Shown piece after piece: positions 16,290-32,697 of a stretch of DNA of 33,099 nt (position 1 is the stretch's first letter; every line of letters starts with the position of its first letter). Under the pieces are notes generated by a model, which saw nothing but the letters and a program-made list of their open reading frames with translations, made no database searches and was not told the origin of the DNA. Origin of the DNA: Phenylobacterium sp. (GTDB lineage: Bacteria > Pseudomonadota > Alphaproteobacteria > Caulobacterales > Caulobacteraceae). A program made the position numbers and the translations under genes. The stretch spans positions 1 through 33,099 of the forward strand of contig NZ_JAQGIZ010000146.1 in NCBI RefSeq assembly GCF_028290885.1. Reading direction: 5' to 3'.

Positions 16290-16416
16290 GCTCAAGGCCC
16301 CGCTTGTTGGCAGCCCCGGCCGGCGGGCGCCAAACTCCGTCGACCACCTGACTCAGCACGAGCGTTTACTTAACAAGTCCTTAGATTTTGCTTTGAAGAC
16401 CCGCTCAGCCGGGTGC

Positions 16417-16650
16417 ATGGTGACGCCGATGGTCTACCTTTGCTACATCCATCGGGAAGGCGGCGGAGCGCCGCATTTCGAGGTGTTGCCGGAAACGTCC
16501 CGGAGCGGCGCCATGGACCACGCTGCACAAATGCTGTCGCAGCACGCAGGCGCGGTGCGGGCCGAGGTCTGGGACGGCGACCGGCTGGTTTTCACCTTGC
16601 CGCGCCCACAGGCGGGGGACCCGGGCGAAGGCCGGATGTCCGCGGGCTAG
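16417..16650 (+). CDS. Small protein of unknown function, 77 aa
   Basis: Two starts are possible, ATG 16417 and ATG 16429 (MVYLCYIHREG); the second aligns better with the paralogue at 4953-5165. The core shows YLCYIHREGG, a helix (SGAMDHAAQMLSQ) and AVRAEVWDGDRLVFTL. The C-terminal 15 residues are Gly/Pro-rich and probably disordered. The TAG stop (16648-16650) is formed by the first CTAG of the double-hairpin repeat, so the repeat either inserted exactly at the stop or supplied a new one. Confidence 0.7.
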   Translation: MVTPMVYLCYIHREGGGAPHFEVLPETSRSGAMDHAAQMLSQHAGAVRAEVWDGDRLVFTLPRPQAGDPGEGRMSAG

Positions 16651-16812
16651 TGTGCTGGATTTGAAGTTCGCCTTACTCACGCGCCACGCGCCGAGCGAAC
16701 TTCAAATCCAAGAAAGCACACTAGAAACATATACTTGCTAGTGTCCTTATCGATTCCGAAGTTCGCCAAAGCCAGCCGCAAGCGCTTGCGAACTTCGGAA
16801 TCGGGACACTAG
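16647..16812. repeat. 166-bp double-hairpin repeat, copy 1
   Basis: Two hairpins are each bounded by CTAG. Hairpin 1 (16647-16724) has an outer 9-bp stem CTAGTGTGC/GCACACTAG and an inner perfect 15-bp stem (16657-16671 with 16695-16709). Hairpin 2 (16738-16812) has an outer 9-bp stem CTAGTGTCC/GGACACTAG and an inner perfect 16-bp stem (16751-16766 with 16788-16803). A 13-bp A/T-rich spacer separates them. Both inner stems share GAAGTTCGC. The second copy is at 32532-32697. The left CTAG gives the stop of the plus-strand gene and the right CTAG gives the stop of the minus-strand gene. Confidence 0.93.
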
Positions 16813-17861
16813 AACTGGCCGAACCTGATCTCTTCGGAGCCGGCCGGCAGGTCGATGGTCATGCCGTCGCGCGCCAGCCGCCAGTCGAGCGGCCCGCCGG
16901 CGTCCATGCCCTTGGTGAAGGCCTCCGGCGTGTAGAACGGCAGGCCCGCCTGGGTCAGGTGGCTGAGCACCAGCCGCTTTACGCCGGCCATGCGGGCGAT
17001 GTCGGCGGCCTCCACCGGGGTGGTGTGGTAGCTGAGCGTGTCGGCCATGACCGAGCTCATCCGGGCGTTGGCCATCATCGCCAGGCCCTGCGACAGCTGT
17101 TTCGTCATGTCGGAGTTCTGCGCCTCGTGGATCAGCACGTCCGCGCCCTTGGCGGCGACGGCGAGCGGCGGCCACTTGATGGTGTCGCCGCTGACCACCA
17201 CCGAGCGGCCCTTGTAGTCGAAGCGGTAGCCGTAGGCCGGGGTGACCGGGTTGTGGTGGACGACGATGGCGGTGACGGTCAGGCCGTTCTCGCGCCAGAC
17301 CACCGCGGTCCCAGAGGCCGGCGGCAGGACGACCTGGGCCTTCAGCAGGCCGGCGGCGATGGGCAGCTTCACCGCGCCGTGCTCATGGTGCGCGTTGCGG
17401 AAGCCGTGGTCGGCACCGTAGGCCTCGTTGAAGCCGGCCGCCAGGTGCTCGACGCCGGGCGGGCCCACGAGCATCAGCGGCCCCGGCCGGCCCGCGACCC
17501 AGCTCTGCATGTTGAACTCGCCGACCTCGCCGATGTGGTCGGAGTGCAGGTGGGTGAGGAACACCGCCCGCGCCGTGGCCATCGGCATCCGCCAGGTCAG
17601 CAGGTTCTCCGTCGACTCCGGCCCGACGTCGACGAGGTAGAGCGCCCCGCCGGCCTGGATGGCGACGCAGGCCTTGGCGCGGTCCTTGACCGGCAGCGGC
17701 CCCGAAGTGCCGCAGAGGACGACCCTGAGGCCATCGGGCGCGGCCACTGCCTGAGGCTGCGCCTGAGCCGCCATGGGCGCCGCCCATAGCGCCAGCAAGG
17801 CCAGGCTGGTCGCCGCGACGGCGCCGATCTTCCGCCAATCCCCGATTTTCCGACAATCCAT
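16809..17861 (-). CDS. Exported metallo-beta-lactamase-fold hydrolase
   Basis: A 350-aa protein from the ATG complementary to 17859-17861, with a signal peptide ending near AAQAQ (about residue 35). The metal-binding signature HLHSDH is at 104-109. Further ligands are likely His202 or 203, Asp226 (VVSGDTIK) and the His of LVLSHLTQ. This layout (early HxHxDH, GDT, late SHL) resembles tRNase Z/arylsulfatase-type members, but the signal peptide points to a periplasmic hydrolase of unknown substrate. It is divergent from the DsbA-like gene. Its TAG stop lies in the right-hand CTAG of the repeat. Confidence 0.9.
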   Translation of the reverse strand: MDCRKIGDWRKIGAVAATSLALLALWAAPMAAQAQPQAVAAPDGLRVVLCGTSGPLPVKDRAKACVAIQAGGALYLVDVGPESTENLLTWRMPMATARAVFLTHLHSDHIGEVGEFNMQSWVAGRPGPLMLVGPPGVEHLAAGFNEAYGADHGFRNAHHEHGAVKLPIAAGLLKAQVVLPPASGTAVVWRENGLTVTAIVVHHNPVTPAYGYRFDYKGRSVVVSGDTIKWPPLAVAAKGADVLIHEAQNSDMTKQLSQGLAMMANARMSSVMADTLSYHTTPVEAADIARMAGVKRLVLSHLTQAGLPFYTPEAFTKGMDAGGPLDWRLARDGMTIDLPAGSEEIRFGQF

Positions 17862-18635: not shown

Positions 18636-18710
18636 GGATGCGTAGCTCAGCGGGAGAGCACCTCGTTCACACCGAGGGGGTCACAGGTTCAATCCCTGTC
18701 GCATCCACCA
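18636..18710 (+). tRNA. tRNA-Val (anticodon CAC)
   Basis: A complete cloverleaf of 75 nt including the encoded CCA: acceptor GGATGCG/CGCATCC, D-arm GCTC/GAGC, anticodon stem CCTCG/CGAGG with loop TTCACAC, and T-arm ACAGG/CCTGT with TTCAATC. The anticodon CAC reads the GUG codon, so the charge is valine. It lies 36 bp after the HCCA-isomerase-like gene. Confidence 0.97.
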
Positions 18711-29965: not shown

Positions 29966-31348
29966 TTGGCCCAGTACGACTACGACCTCTTTGTGATCGG
30001 CGCGGGCTCGGGCGGCGTGCGCGCGGCCCGCCTCGCGGCGATGTCCGGCGCCAGGGTCGCCGTGGCCGAGGAGGATCGGGTAGGGGGCACCTGCGTGATC
30101 CGCGGCTGCATTCCCAAGAAATTCATGGTCTACGCTTCGGAATTCTCACACCATTTCAAGACCGCGAAGAGCTATGGCTGGACGGTCGAGCGCGCCACCT
30201 TCGACTGGCCGGCCTTCCTGGCCCAGAAGGACACGGAGATCGCCCGGCTTTCCGGCGTCTATGTCCGCAACCTGCACAACGCCGGCGCCGAGCTGGTGCA
30301 CGGCAAGGGCCGGGTGGTCGACGCCCACACCGTCGAGGTCGCCGGCCACGGGACGCGCACCACCGGCAAGATCCTGATCGCCACTGGCGGACGGCCGTGG
30401 CGGCCGAGCGACATCCCCGGCTGCGAGTTCGCGATCACCTCCAACGAGGCCTTCCAGCTGCCGGAGCTGCCGAAACGCATCGTCATCGCCGGCGGCGGCT
30501 ATATCGCCGTCGAGTTCGCCGGCATCTTCAACGGCCTGGGCGTCGACACGACCCTGGTCTACCGCGGCCCCAACCTGCTGCGCGGCTTCGACGACGACGT
30601 GCGCAGCCATGTGGCCGAGGAGCTGGAGAAGCGCGGGATCACGGTCGTGCTCGCCACCCAGCACACCGCCATCGAAAAGACCGCGACAGGGCTCCTCAGC
30701 CGCTTCACCAACGGCCACGACGTCGAGAGCGACACGGTCATGTGGGCGCTCGGCCGCGAGCCCTATGTGGAGGGTCTGGGCCTGGAGGCCGCCGGCGTGA
30801 AGCTGACCGAGAAGGGCGCGGTGGCGGTGGACGACTATTCGCGCACCAACGTCGAGAACATCTGGGCGGTCGGCGACGTCACCGACCGCATCAACCTGAC
30901 GCCGGTGGCGATCCGCGAGGGCCAGGCCTTCGCCGAGACGGAGTTCTACGACCGGCCCACGAAATTCGACCACGAGATGGTGGCCTCCGCAGTCTTCTCG
31001 CAGCCGCCGATCGGCGCGGTGGGCCTGGCCGAGGCCGACGCGCGCCACCAGTATGGCAAGGTGGACATCTACCTCGCACGGCTGCGGCCGATGAAATACG
31101 CCTTCGCCGGCGCCGACGAGCGCGCGCTGATCAAGCTGGTGGTGGACGCCGCCACGGAGAAGGTGGTGGGCTGCCACGTGGTGGGCCCCGATGCGCCGGA
31201 GATGATCCAGATGGCGGCCATCGCCATGAAGATGGGCGTCACCAAGACCCAGTGGGACGCCACCTGCGCGGTCCACCCGACGCTGGCCGAAGAGTTGGTC
31301 ACCCTGCGCGAGAAATACGTGCCCCTGGGCCTGGGCCAGGTGGCATGA
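29966..31348 (+). CDS. gor: Glutathione-disulfide reductase
   Basis: A 460-aa flavoenzyme reducing GSSG with NADPH. The FAD-binding motif is GAGSGG (12-17), the redox disulfide is Cys43-VIRG-Cys48 followed by IPKK, and the second dinucleotide motif is GGGYIAVEFAG. The C-terminal dimer-interface active site is His437 and Glu442 (HPTLAEE). I chose the TTG at 29966 because AAGGAGG (29954-29960) lies 5 bp upstream and the product then begins MAQYDYDLF. It lies 14 bp after rpiA, the usual NADPH-linked company for such a gene. Confidence 0.94.
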   Translation: MAQYDYDLFVIGAGSGGVRAARLAAMSGARVAVAEEDRVGGTCVIRGCIPKKFMVYASEFSHHFKTAKSYGWTVERATFDWPAFLAQKDTEIARLSGVYVRNLHNAGAELVHGKGRVVDAHTVEVAGHGTRTTGKILIATGGRPWRPSDIPGCEFAITSNEAFQLPELPKRIVIAGGGYIAVEFAGIFNGLGVDTTLVYRGPNLLRGFDDDVRSHVAEELEKRGITVVLATQHTAIEKTATGLLSRFTNGHDVESDTVMWALGREPYVEGLGLEAAGVKLTEKGAVAVDDYSRTNVENIWAVGDVTDRINLTPVAIREGQAFAETEFYDRPTKFDHEMVASAVFSQPPIGAVGLAEADARHQYGKVDIYLARLRPMKYAFAGADERALIKLVVDAATEKVVGCHVVGPDAPEMIQMAAIAMKMGVTKTQWDATCAVHPTLAEELVTLREKYVPLGLGQVA

Positions 31349-32535
31349 CGGCAACCGCCGCCGCCGCGCCCGCGCGCGACCGCCTGGGGGTATGGTGCGG
31401 CTGGGTGTTGATCGGCGCCGCGGTGCTGGTTCCGATCCTGGGCTGGCTGGCTCCGTTGGGATTCGCGGCGCTGCTGGCGCTGGTGGGACTGCTCTGCCTG
31501 CCGGCGGTGCGGATCGCCGACCAGGATCGGCCGGCGGCGATGATCCTGTTCGCGACCCTCATCTGGGCGGCGGTCTCGACCACCTGGAGCCCATATCATC
31601 CCAGCAAGCCAGGCAACTCCACGGTCCTGAAGCTCGCCTTTGAGCTGCCGCTCTACTGGAGCGCCATTTCGGCGGCTCGGCGCGCCGATCCGGTGCTGCG
31701 CACCCGCGCCCTGCACGTCCTGGCCTGGGGCTGCGCCGTGTTCGGCCTTGTCCTTCTTGAGGAGGCCGTGACGCGCGGCGCGCTCTACAAGGCGGTGCAC
31801 GTCTCATATGAGCCAATCCGCGGCGATCTTGCGGAGTCCAACGTCGGACATTCCAGCCAGGTGCTCGCCCTGATCTGGCCGTTGGCGGCCGCCGGCGCGC
31901 CAGGCCGATGGCGGCCCTGGCTGGCGCTGGCGATGGTGGTGGGGACTGGCGCGGCGGCTCTGGCGTTTGGGTATGACGAGCCGGTGATCAGCCTCGTGCT
32001 GGCCCCCGTGACCGCGCTGATTGTCTGGCGTTGGCCCGATCGCGCGCCGAAGGTGATGGCCCTTGCCGCCGTGGTGCTCTTCCTGGGGATGCCCCTGGCG
32101 GTCTGGGCCGTCCGGCATTTCTTCGACTATGAGGCAATCCGGAACGCCCTGCCGAAGACCGATTCCATGCGCATGGGCTATTGGAGTCACGCCATCGATT
32201 GGATCCGGCTACGCCCCGTACGGGGCTGGGGCCTCGACGCCAGCCGCATGTTCGGCCCTGGGATCGTGCTGCATCCGCACAACAACCCACTGCAAATCTG
32301 GCTGGAGCTGGGTGGGATCGGGGCGGTCGCGGCCGCGGCCTTGTGGGGCGTGGCGCTGACCAGGCTTTCAAGGCCGATCCCCAGCCTGTCCGCCGCCGCC
32401 ACGGCGGCCTGCGCGGCGGTCTACCTGCTCTCCGGCGTCAACTTCGGCGTCTGGCAGGAGTGGTGGCTGGCGCTAGGCGCGCTGATTGCGGTGTTTGCCG
32501 TCATGAACGCCCCGACCGACGAGACCGCCCGCTAG
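31345..32535 (+). CDS. O-antigen ligase/polymerase-like membrane protein
   Basis: A 396-aa inner-membrane protein with about ten hydrophobic segments and one large periplasmic loop. The loop contains RMGYWSHAIDWIRLRP, GWGLDAS and HPHNNPLQIWLELGG, the pattern of the Wzy_C/WaaL family, in which the loop Arg and His are needed to transfer or polymerise polysaccharide from undecaprenyl carrier. Its precise role (O-antigen ligase, exopolysaccharide polymerase or similar) cannot be settled. ATG overlaps the gor stop. The TAG stop is provided by the first CTAG of repeat copy 2. Confidence 0.88.
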   Translation: MTATAAAAPARDRLGVWCGWVLIGAAVLVPILGWLAPLGFAALLALVGLLCLPAVRIADQDRPAAMILFATLIWAAVSTTWSPYHPSKPGNSTVLKLAFELPLYWSAISAARRADPVLRTRALHVLAWGCAVFGLVLLEEAVTRGALYKAVHVSYEPIRGDLAESNVGHSSQVLALIWPLAAAGAPGRWRPWLALAMVVGTGAAALAFGYDEPVISLVLAPVTALIVWRWPDRAPKVMALAAVVLFLGMPLAVWAVRHFFDYEAIRNALPKTDSMRMGYWSHAIDWIRLRPVRGWGLDASRMFGPGIVLHPHNNPLQIWLELGGIGAVAAAALWGVALTRLSRPIPSLSAAATAACAAVYLLSGVNFGVWQEWWLALGALIAVFAVMNAPTDETAR

Positions 32536-32697
32536 TGTGCTGGATTTGAAGTTCGCCTCATTTACGGGCCACGCGCCGAGCGAACTTCAAATCCAAGAAG
32601 CACACTAGAAAACATATGCTTGCTAGTGTCCCCATCGATCCCGAAGTTCGCCAAAGCCAGCCGCAAGCACTTGCGAACTTCGGGATCGGGACACTAG
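32532..32697. repeat. 166-bp double-hairpin repeat, copy 2
   Basis: Same layout as copy 1: CTAG-bounded hairpin 1 (32532-32608), a 14-bp spacer (32609-32622), and CTAG-bounded hairpin 2 (32623-32697). By hand alignment it differs from copy 1 at about ten positions and two single-base indels, with four changes in the hairpin-1 loop. One pair of changes (32640 C with 32684 G, replacing T-A at 16755/16799) keeps the stem of hairpin 2. Orientation is the same as copy 1 on the plus strand. The left CTAG contains the stop codon of the O-antigen ligase-like gene. Confidence 0.93.

Follow-up and report, generated by a model that had tools for sequence, protein, structure and literature searches.

The window, meaning the whole stretch of 33,099 nucleotides that was analyzed, contains two copies of a 166-bp element. 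Copy 1 lies at 16647..16812 (plus strand, both terminal CTAGs counted) between an upstream open reading frame at 16417-16650 on the plus strand, which is a low-scoring gene call, and a convergent gene at 16809-17861 on the minus strand, the product of which is metallo-hydrolase-like by our reading. The TAG stop codon of the first (16648..16650) falls within the left terminal CTAG of the element and the TAG stop codon of the second (16809..16811, minus strand) falls within the right terminal CTAG. Copy 2 lies at 32532..32697 on the plus strand, and the open reading frame preceding it on the same strand (31345-32535) has its TAG stop at 32533..32535, again within the left terminal CTAG. A tRNA gene (Rfam RF00005) is present at 18636-18707 on the plus strand.

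Each copy is composed of two separate hairpins joined by a linker, with a CTAG at both ends of each hairpin. Hairpin 1 of copy 1 (16647..16724) has an outer stem of 10 bp and an inner stem of 15 bp with a 5-nt bulge in the inner arm at 16710-16714; it is followed by the linker AAACATATACTTG (16725..16737, 13 nt) and by hairpin 2 (16738..16812), with an outer stem of 9 bp, an inner stem of 16 bp and a 4-nt inner-arm bulge at 16747-16750. The corresponding parts of copy 2 are hairpin 1 at 32532-32608, a 14-nt linker at 32609-32622 and hairpin 2 at 32623-32697. We refer to the outer arm of hairpin 1 (16647..16671, CTAGTGTGCTGGATTTGAAGTTCGC) as the left terminal repeat and to the outer arm of hairpin 2 (16788..16812, reading CTAGTGTCCCGATTCCGAAGTTCGC on the minus strand) as the right terminal repeat, on the basis of their identity with the ends of IS630-family elements described below. 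Each inner arm is a near copy of the adjoining outer arm, with 3-5 extra bases inserted at about the same place. Hairpin 2 also contains the GANTC site GATTC at 16752..16756 on the plus strand, paired with GAATC at 16798-16802. An earlier, sequence-only reading of this DNA had reported the repeated double hairpin with its CTAG boundaries, a core shared by the two inner stems, which is GAAGTTCGC in both, and a change of the pair T16755-A16799 in copy 1 to C32640-G32684 in copy 2; all of these observations are correct. It had also remarked that CTAG, usually rare in such genomes, occurs four times in each copy, and the window indeed has 19 CTAGs where 43 are expected, with 8 of the 19 inside the two elements.

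The genome to which the window belongs is a draft of 317 contigs (89.55% complete, 6.06% contamination), in which the outer arm of hairpin 2 was found at 62 places when up to 3 mismatches were allowed, while the same pattern written backward gave 0. We read 63 distinct matches in this genome, 47 of which were full length by the criterion of our script, and several contigs end inside an element, which makes the copy count a lower bound. The copies are non-coding and dispersed, with exact ends and flanks that are unrelated by eye. Almost all of the 29 copies that we aligned have CTAG at the two feet of each hairpin, leaving no head of the GTAG type at one foot only. A covariance model built from these 29 copies matched 22 of 101 genomes of the same genus, our own included; two of the matches (locus L069 in genome G085 and L067 in G087) were doubtful members when read, and the number of genomes may therefore be 20 or 21. 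Copy numbers in the relatives are likewise lower bounds, as the filters were strict and at most 28 candidates were scored per genome.

Outside this set, a 23-base pattern matched at least 90 stretches in named genomes, and a profile search found the element in 72 of the 90 listed. Among the matches listed, these 72 stretches belong to Phenylobacterium, Caulobacter, metagenome-assembled genomes of other Caulobacteraceae or alphaproteobacteria, and one record labeled Chloroflexi; the remaining stretches were stray matches or were cut. Nine plasmids of Roseibium and Labrenzia carry the element at 72.5-74.2% identity. No match was obtained in the phages searched, and no relative of the element was found in 400 kb from a complete genome of the Caulobacteraceae (G372).

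The Chloroflexi bacterium record contains a full copy (L143, 2359-2523) on a contig that is probably misassigned. Only a few bases separate one copy (L022, 1501-1665) from the end of a gene resembling the large subunit of a phage terminase, and this copy may sit in a prophage. Two loci of our own genome (L018 and L202, contigs C80 and C68 of G000, position 71) share the left flank and a nearly identical element and differ on the right side, which could reflect either recombination between copies or an assembly artifact. At L211 of genome G002 (1475-1600), unrelated sequence follows directly after the inner CTAG of hairpin 1, as if a different element had inserted there. The 400 kb of G372 (L401-L420) contain families of long palindromic repeats of their own (TGTCATCCTCCGG..., CCTTCTCCCG... 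and CCTCCCTCCCC...), some with a central GANTC. Finally, single-hairpin hybrids of approximately 70 bp, consisting of the left outer arm and the right outer arm and mostly bounded by CTAG, occur in several genomes, with several of them in one genome (L213-L215, L130, L092 and L121 from the 338R MAG and G099, and L153 from Caulobacter sp. 602-1); L185, L186, L199 and L195 are also single-hairpin hybrids. We considered these as a separate mobile form and dropped the idea, since their sequences would fit deletions between repeated GAAGTTCGCC or GCGAACTTC.

The folding of the element was evaluated as single-stranded DNA. The energies were -59.6 kcal/mol for copy 1 and -55.4 kcal/mol for copy 2 against means of approximately -20.5 for shuffled sequences, corresponding to z-scores of -12.8 and -11.8, and none of 200 shuffles folded equally low. 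Three alignments were used to examine covariation. Alignment A1 comprises the 29 own copies, that is, the 30 own matches that scored best, to which window copy 2 was added, with L001 entered as window copy 1 and with L010 and L027 removed because they are cut by contig ends. Alignment A2 comprises 43 diverse rows that we chose (5 own, 27 of the 38 rows from relatives and 11 named loci), and omits 7 further rows of G002, row L073, and three rows that were poor or incomplete (L066, L067 and L069). Alignment A3 comprises 47 own rows, the full-length set minus L010 plus L198. Both sides have changed in 31 of 50 stem pairs of A2, 97.1% of the pair cells are standard, and 128 cells are doubly changed compared with 24.6 in shuffled alignments; 0 of 500 shuffles reached any of the measures, and the signal was lost when the partners were slid out of register. 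The own copies of A3 show 8 of 50 pairs and 11 cells doubly changed where the shuffled mean is 0.9 for both (0 of 500 shuffles). In A1 the pair T16755-A16799 is the single doubly changed one, which is within chance, as 54 of 500 shuffles reach it. Relatedness among the copies can inflate all of these results. Wobble pairs are few in A2, amounting to 39 cells, 17 of them at a single loop-closing pair.

The lengths of the segments vary very little. In A2 the linker has 13 nt in 29 of 43 copies, 14 nt in 12 and 15 nt in 2 (its sequence in Roseibium is AAACATATATTTG); the bulge of hairpin 2 has 4 nt in all 43, and that of hairpin 1 has 4 nt in 34, 5 nt in 8 and 3 nt in 1. The loops have 21-23 nt and the whole element 163-168 bp, while the majority base accounts for 59% (hairpin 1) and 73% (hairpin 2) of the loop columns. 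The fixed lengths would point to a geometry on double-stranded DNA. The counting of copies and the mapping of compensatory changes that the earlier reading had proposed thus yielded a family in at least 62 places of one genome, with covarying stems, and not an isolated pair of sequences without compensation; its impression that two related units had been joined agrees with this mobile double-hairpin family. The GANTC site is retained in 36 of the 43 copies in the inner arm of hairpin 2 and in 34 in the outer arm.

A different pattern was obtained at a site where the element has stayed in place. The nine Roseibium and Labrenzia plasmids carry it at one orthologous site in 5 distinct sequences, and among the stem changes, counted against one plasmid sequence and partly shared, none is compensated, 6 lead to G-T pairs and 4 break the pair. 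Pairing would thus be kept in lineages that move and not at resting sites. Strong covariation between lineages, set against the few uncompensated changes at this one site, would mean that the moving lineage, and not the host, depends on pairing.

The position of the element relative to CTAG was determined by reading the corresponding loci of relatives. Beyond CTAG no duplication of the flanks was seen by eye. For the own copy L011, which lies between a histidine-kinase-like gene and a convergent gamma-glutamyltransferase-like gene (our naming), 96 relatives' loci matched and 29 were read. Four of these (L250, L252, L256 and L259) are empty sites in which the convergent genes share one CTAG, and translation showed both genes in frame and stopping at it; the other loci have other stops or longer spacers. 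For window copy 1, a lone CTAG is found at the end of the convergent gene in 4 of the 24 relatives read out of 29 relatives' loci (G078, G030, G124 and G099), and the left flank does not align by eye with that of the nearest relative. No element was found in the 58 relatives' loci for these two sites. CTAG is therefore the target and is duplicated upon insertion, because a lone CTAG is present in the empty sites and a CTAG is present on each side of the filled ones; a TA duplication and a 4-bp CTAG duplication look the same on such a target.

Of the genes that run toward an element, 41 of 65 in our own genome and 63 of 96 in relatives have the terminal TAG of the element as their stop codon (a trimmed end puts one of the 41 out by one base). 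All genes pointing away start at or beyond the edge of the element (40 of 40 own, 66 of 66 in relatives), and no facing frames were found that stop elsewhere inside the element, unlike what is expected from random insertion in genes. The genes were called with our own codon-usage caller except in Roseibium, where the annotation by others places the end of an SDR gene at the first CTAG of the element in 9 of 9 plasmids. CTAG outside the elements is scarce, with 66 observed in the own loci against 259 expected from trinucleotides. Location at a stop is more frequent among elements (30 of 41 in our own genome, 50 of 77 in relatives) than among free CTAGs (16 of 58 and 78 of 271, respectively); after excluding CTAGs inside genes, the difference persists (30 of 41 versus 16 of 39, p 0.006, and 50 of 77 versus 78 of 189, p 0.0007). 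Two of the own elements were scored as overlapping a predicted gene. CTAG alone therefore does not explain the placement, to which either purifying selection or some additional preference must contribute. In five relatives' copies (L146, L154, L158, L161 and L176) CTAG is intact at the end used as a stop and the other end has changed, which is partly so by construction.

The terminal repeats were compared with the ends of insertion sequences, which our scripts chose as the best inverted pair. One counterpart is an IS630-family element in the same-genus genome G031, 1201 bp long including both CTAGs, with an open frame whose protein carries DDE_3. Its ends, CTAGTGTCCCGACTCAGAAGTTCAC and CTAGTGTCCTGGTTCAGAAGTTTGC, match the right end of our element at 22 and 21 of 25 positions and the left end at 18 and 20, and GANTC also occurs within its left end. 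Five IS630 ends from the same genus match the right end at 21-22 of 25 and the left end at 17-20 of 25, and the figure for eight ends taken from other IS630 elements in the family is 10-16 of 25. Complete or fragmentary IS630 copies with a single matching end next to them were also found in G031 (contig C51), G030, G011 and a genome of another genus (G366); for most of the matching copies only one end was found. On named plasmids, one IS630 end of Roseomonas mucosa matches the right end of the element at 24 of 25 positions, those of R. gilardii match at up to 20 (left) and 21 (right) of 25, and the best values on Bradyrhizobium plasmids are 21 of 25 for the left end and 22 of 25 for the right. 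The best inverted ends lay within CTA..TAG in 6 of the 7 other IS630 copies of the family tested. The intact G031 copy has no such hairpin at its ends.

The mobilizer of the element would accordingly be an IS630-family transposase, as judged from these end sequences. Our own genome gave 0 IS630 matches (20 of 27 candidates scored, in a genome 89.55% complete), and no such transposase was found in the 0.97 Mb of element loci read, the best E value being 0.09. Among the genomes searched for both, none had the element together with a matching IS630 (G031, G030 and G011 have no element). IS630 matches with E <= 0.001 occur in 12 of 22 genomes with the element and in 45 of 79 other genomes of the genus, and the present-day presence of IS630 therefore does not track the element. 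Because many of the genomes are drafts in which repeats have been lost, this distribution is weak evidence either way.

Very probably we are dealing with a non-autonomous MITE that belongs to the IS630/Tc1-mariner type and has its outer 25-bp arms as terminal inverted repeats. An IS630-family transposase would act in trans, presumably by cut-and-paste, and insert the element at the TA of CTAG, and the duplication of TA would give a complete CTAG on each side. On our counts over a quarter of the scarce unoccupied CTAGs are TAG stop codons, and duplication at such a stop would keep the stops of both neighboring genes intact; insertions at gene ends would do little harm and persist because both stops are preserved, and the host would pay a low cost. 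Where CTAG is scarce in a genome, targeting it would in this manner bring a selfish element to stop codons, with the target duplication sparing both neighbors. The inner arms probably cannot serve as ends owing to their inserts of 3-5 nt, and the whole double hairpin would then move as a unit. Its double form could have arisen either by inverted duplication of a MITE with one hairpin or by two neighboring insertions. Taking these points together, we tentatively suggest a possible design in which four transposase-binding arms are held in a fixed geometry, two outer ones working and two inner ones disabled by the 3-5 nt insert, in which hairpin pairing is needed for efficient amplification, and in which CTAG stops, including shared convergent ones, are nearly harmless docking sites; the same design might also account for the mobility of other alphaproteobacterial repeats with two arms, for which an explanation is lacking.

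Another way to account for the position at gene ends is a structured RNA or DNA useful to the host and selected there, such as a stabilizer of 3' ends, a terminator or a carrier of CcrM sites. The covarying stems, the nearly fixed segment lengths, the mostly retained GANTC and the excess at gene ends over other out-of-gene CTAGs would all be consistent with it. We nevertheless regard a host function as rather unlikely. A search of 16400-17000 around copy 1 gave no terminator-like site, the orientation of the hairpins shows no significant bias (20:14 in our own genome, 32:28 in relatives), and no Rfam family matched the element at its gathering score. Neither of the two own sites is occupied in the relatives' loci read, the stem changes on the Roseibium plasmids are uncompensated, and the small number of wobble cells relative to double changes among diverse copies also argues against it. 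GANTC is the CcrM site according to PMC2229807, and one might at most suggest that these sites are linked to the cell cycle.

That the element is a MITE of an IS481-family insertion sequence is very improbable. The IS481 elements of the genus also target CTAG, as the copies in genome G067 show, and share with our element the TGT...ACA ends and the spacing of GAAG. However, the eight G067 copies read repeat six bases, NCTAGN, with one base between CTAG and TGT, whereas our element repeats CTAG only and abuts TGT directly; the ends differ past GAAG, and our own genome has no IS481 match. IS481 (PF13011, NF033577) was rejected on the duplication length and the end sequence. The G067 element is approximately 1020 bp long and gave ten matches of identical score in that one genome; the copies read were L277, L296 and L301-L306.

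The sequence-only reading had favored a REP/REPIN doublet moved on single-stranded DNA by a Y1 (RAYT) transposase with CTAG as its recognition foot, for which the inverted two-hairpin layout with a tetranucleotide foot, the covarying stems and the Y1 genes in 20 of 101 same-genus genomes would speak, and we now find it barely credible: PF01797 has 0 matches in our own genome, none in the element-rich genomes G078, G097, G099, G015 and G122, and is found in 7 of 22 element bearers and 13 of 79 others; no element flanks the Y1 gene at the 12 loci read out of 23 matches; and CTAG is a duplicated target site, not a REP head, at ends that match those of IS630.

We found no description of this family in the literature on REPIN/RAYT, MITEs at CTAG, repeats of Caulobacter and Phenylobacterium, CIR, and IS481/IS630, of which mostly papers outside subscription were covered. 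The Correia elements of Neisseria and RUP of Streptococcus pneumoniae have one pair of terminal repeats. Unlike them, our element has a hairpin of its own at each end, a linker of 13-15 nt between the two, and CTAG as its target. It resembles them in being non-coding, repeated and provided with IS630-type ends and a TA-containing target, as far as they are characterized in PMC2817692, where both are given as IS630-derived MITEs. IS630 of Shigella sonnei is autonomous and has a preference for TA in 5'-CTAG-3', according to the title of Tenzen and Ohtsubo (1991) as cited in PMC2170065; the likeness concerns the target only, the ends being outside the comparison. MITEPsy1 of Pseudomonas syringae also duplicates CTAG (or YTAA) and has ISPsy2-like ends, assigned with a question mark to the IS5 type (PMC3189936); it is a MITE of 100 nt with no double hairpin in the description given there, compared with 163-168 bp and a double hairpin in our case. 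REPs share with our element the inverted hairpin pair and the high number of copies; their size of 20-40 bp (PMC3733652) and their GT(A/G)G head and REP-flanked Y1 gene, as outlined in PMC2817692, have no counterpart found for it. A similar layout is found in the CIR repeats (Chen and Shapiro 2003), known from Caulobacter and further alphaproteobacteria and summarized in PMC2229807 as two arms with a linker, GANTC sites and a length of approximately 110 bp. Our element is likewise an alphaproteobacterial repeat with two linker-joined arms and GANTC sites, and is set apart from CIR as described there by its length and by GANTC lying in the stem and not at the terminal loop. The 2007 review (PMC2229807) stated that more information was needed on how CIR repeats move. 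For the element described here, which has a CIR-like layout, a target site, empty sites and a probable transposase family can be named, which makes its movement testable.
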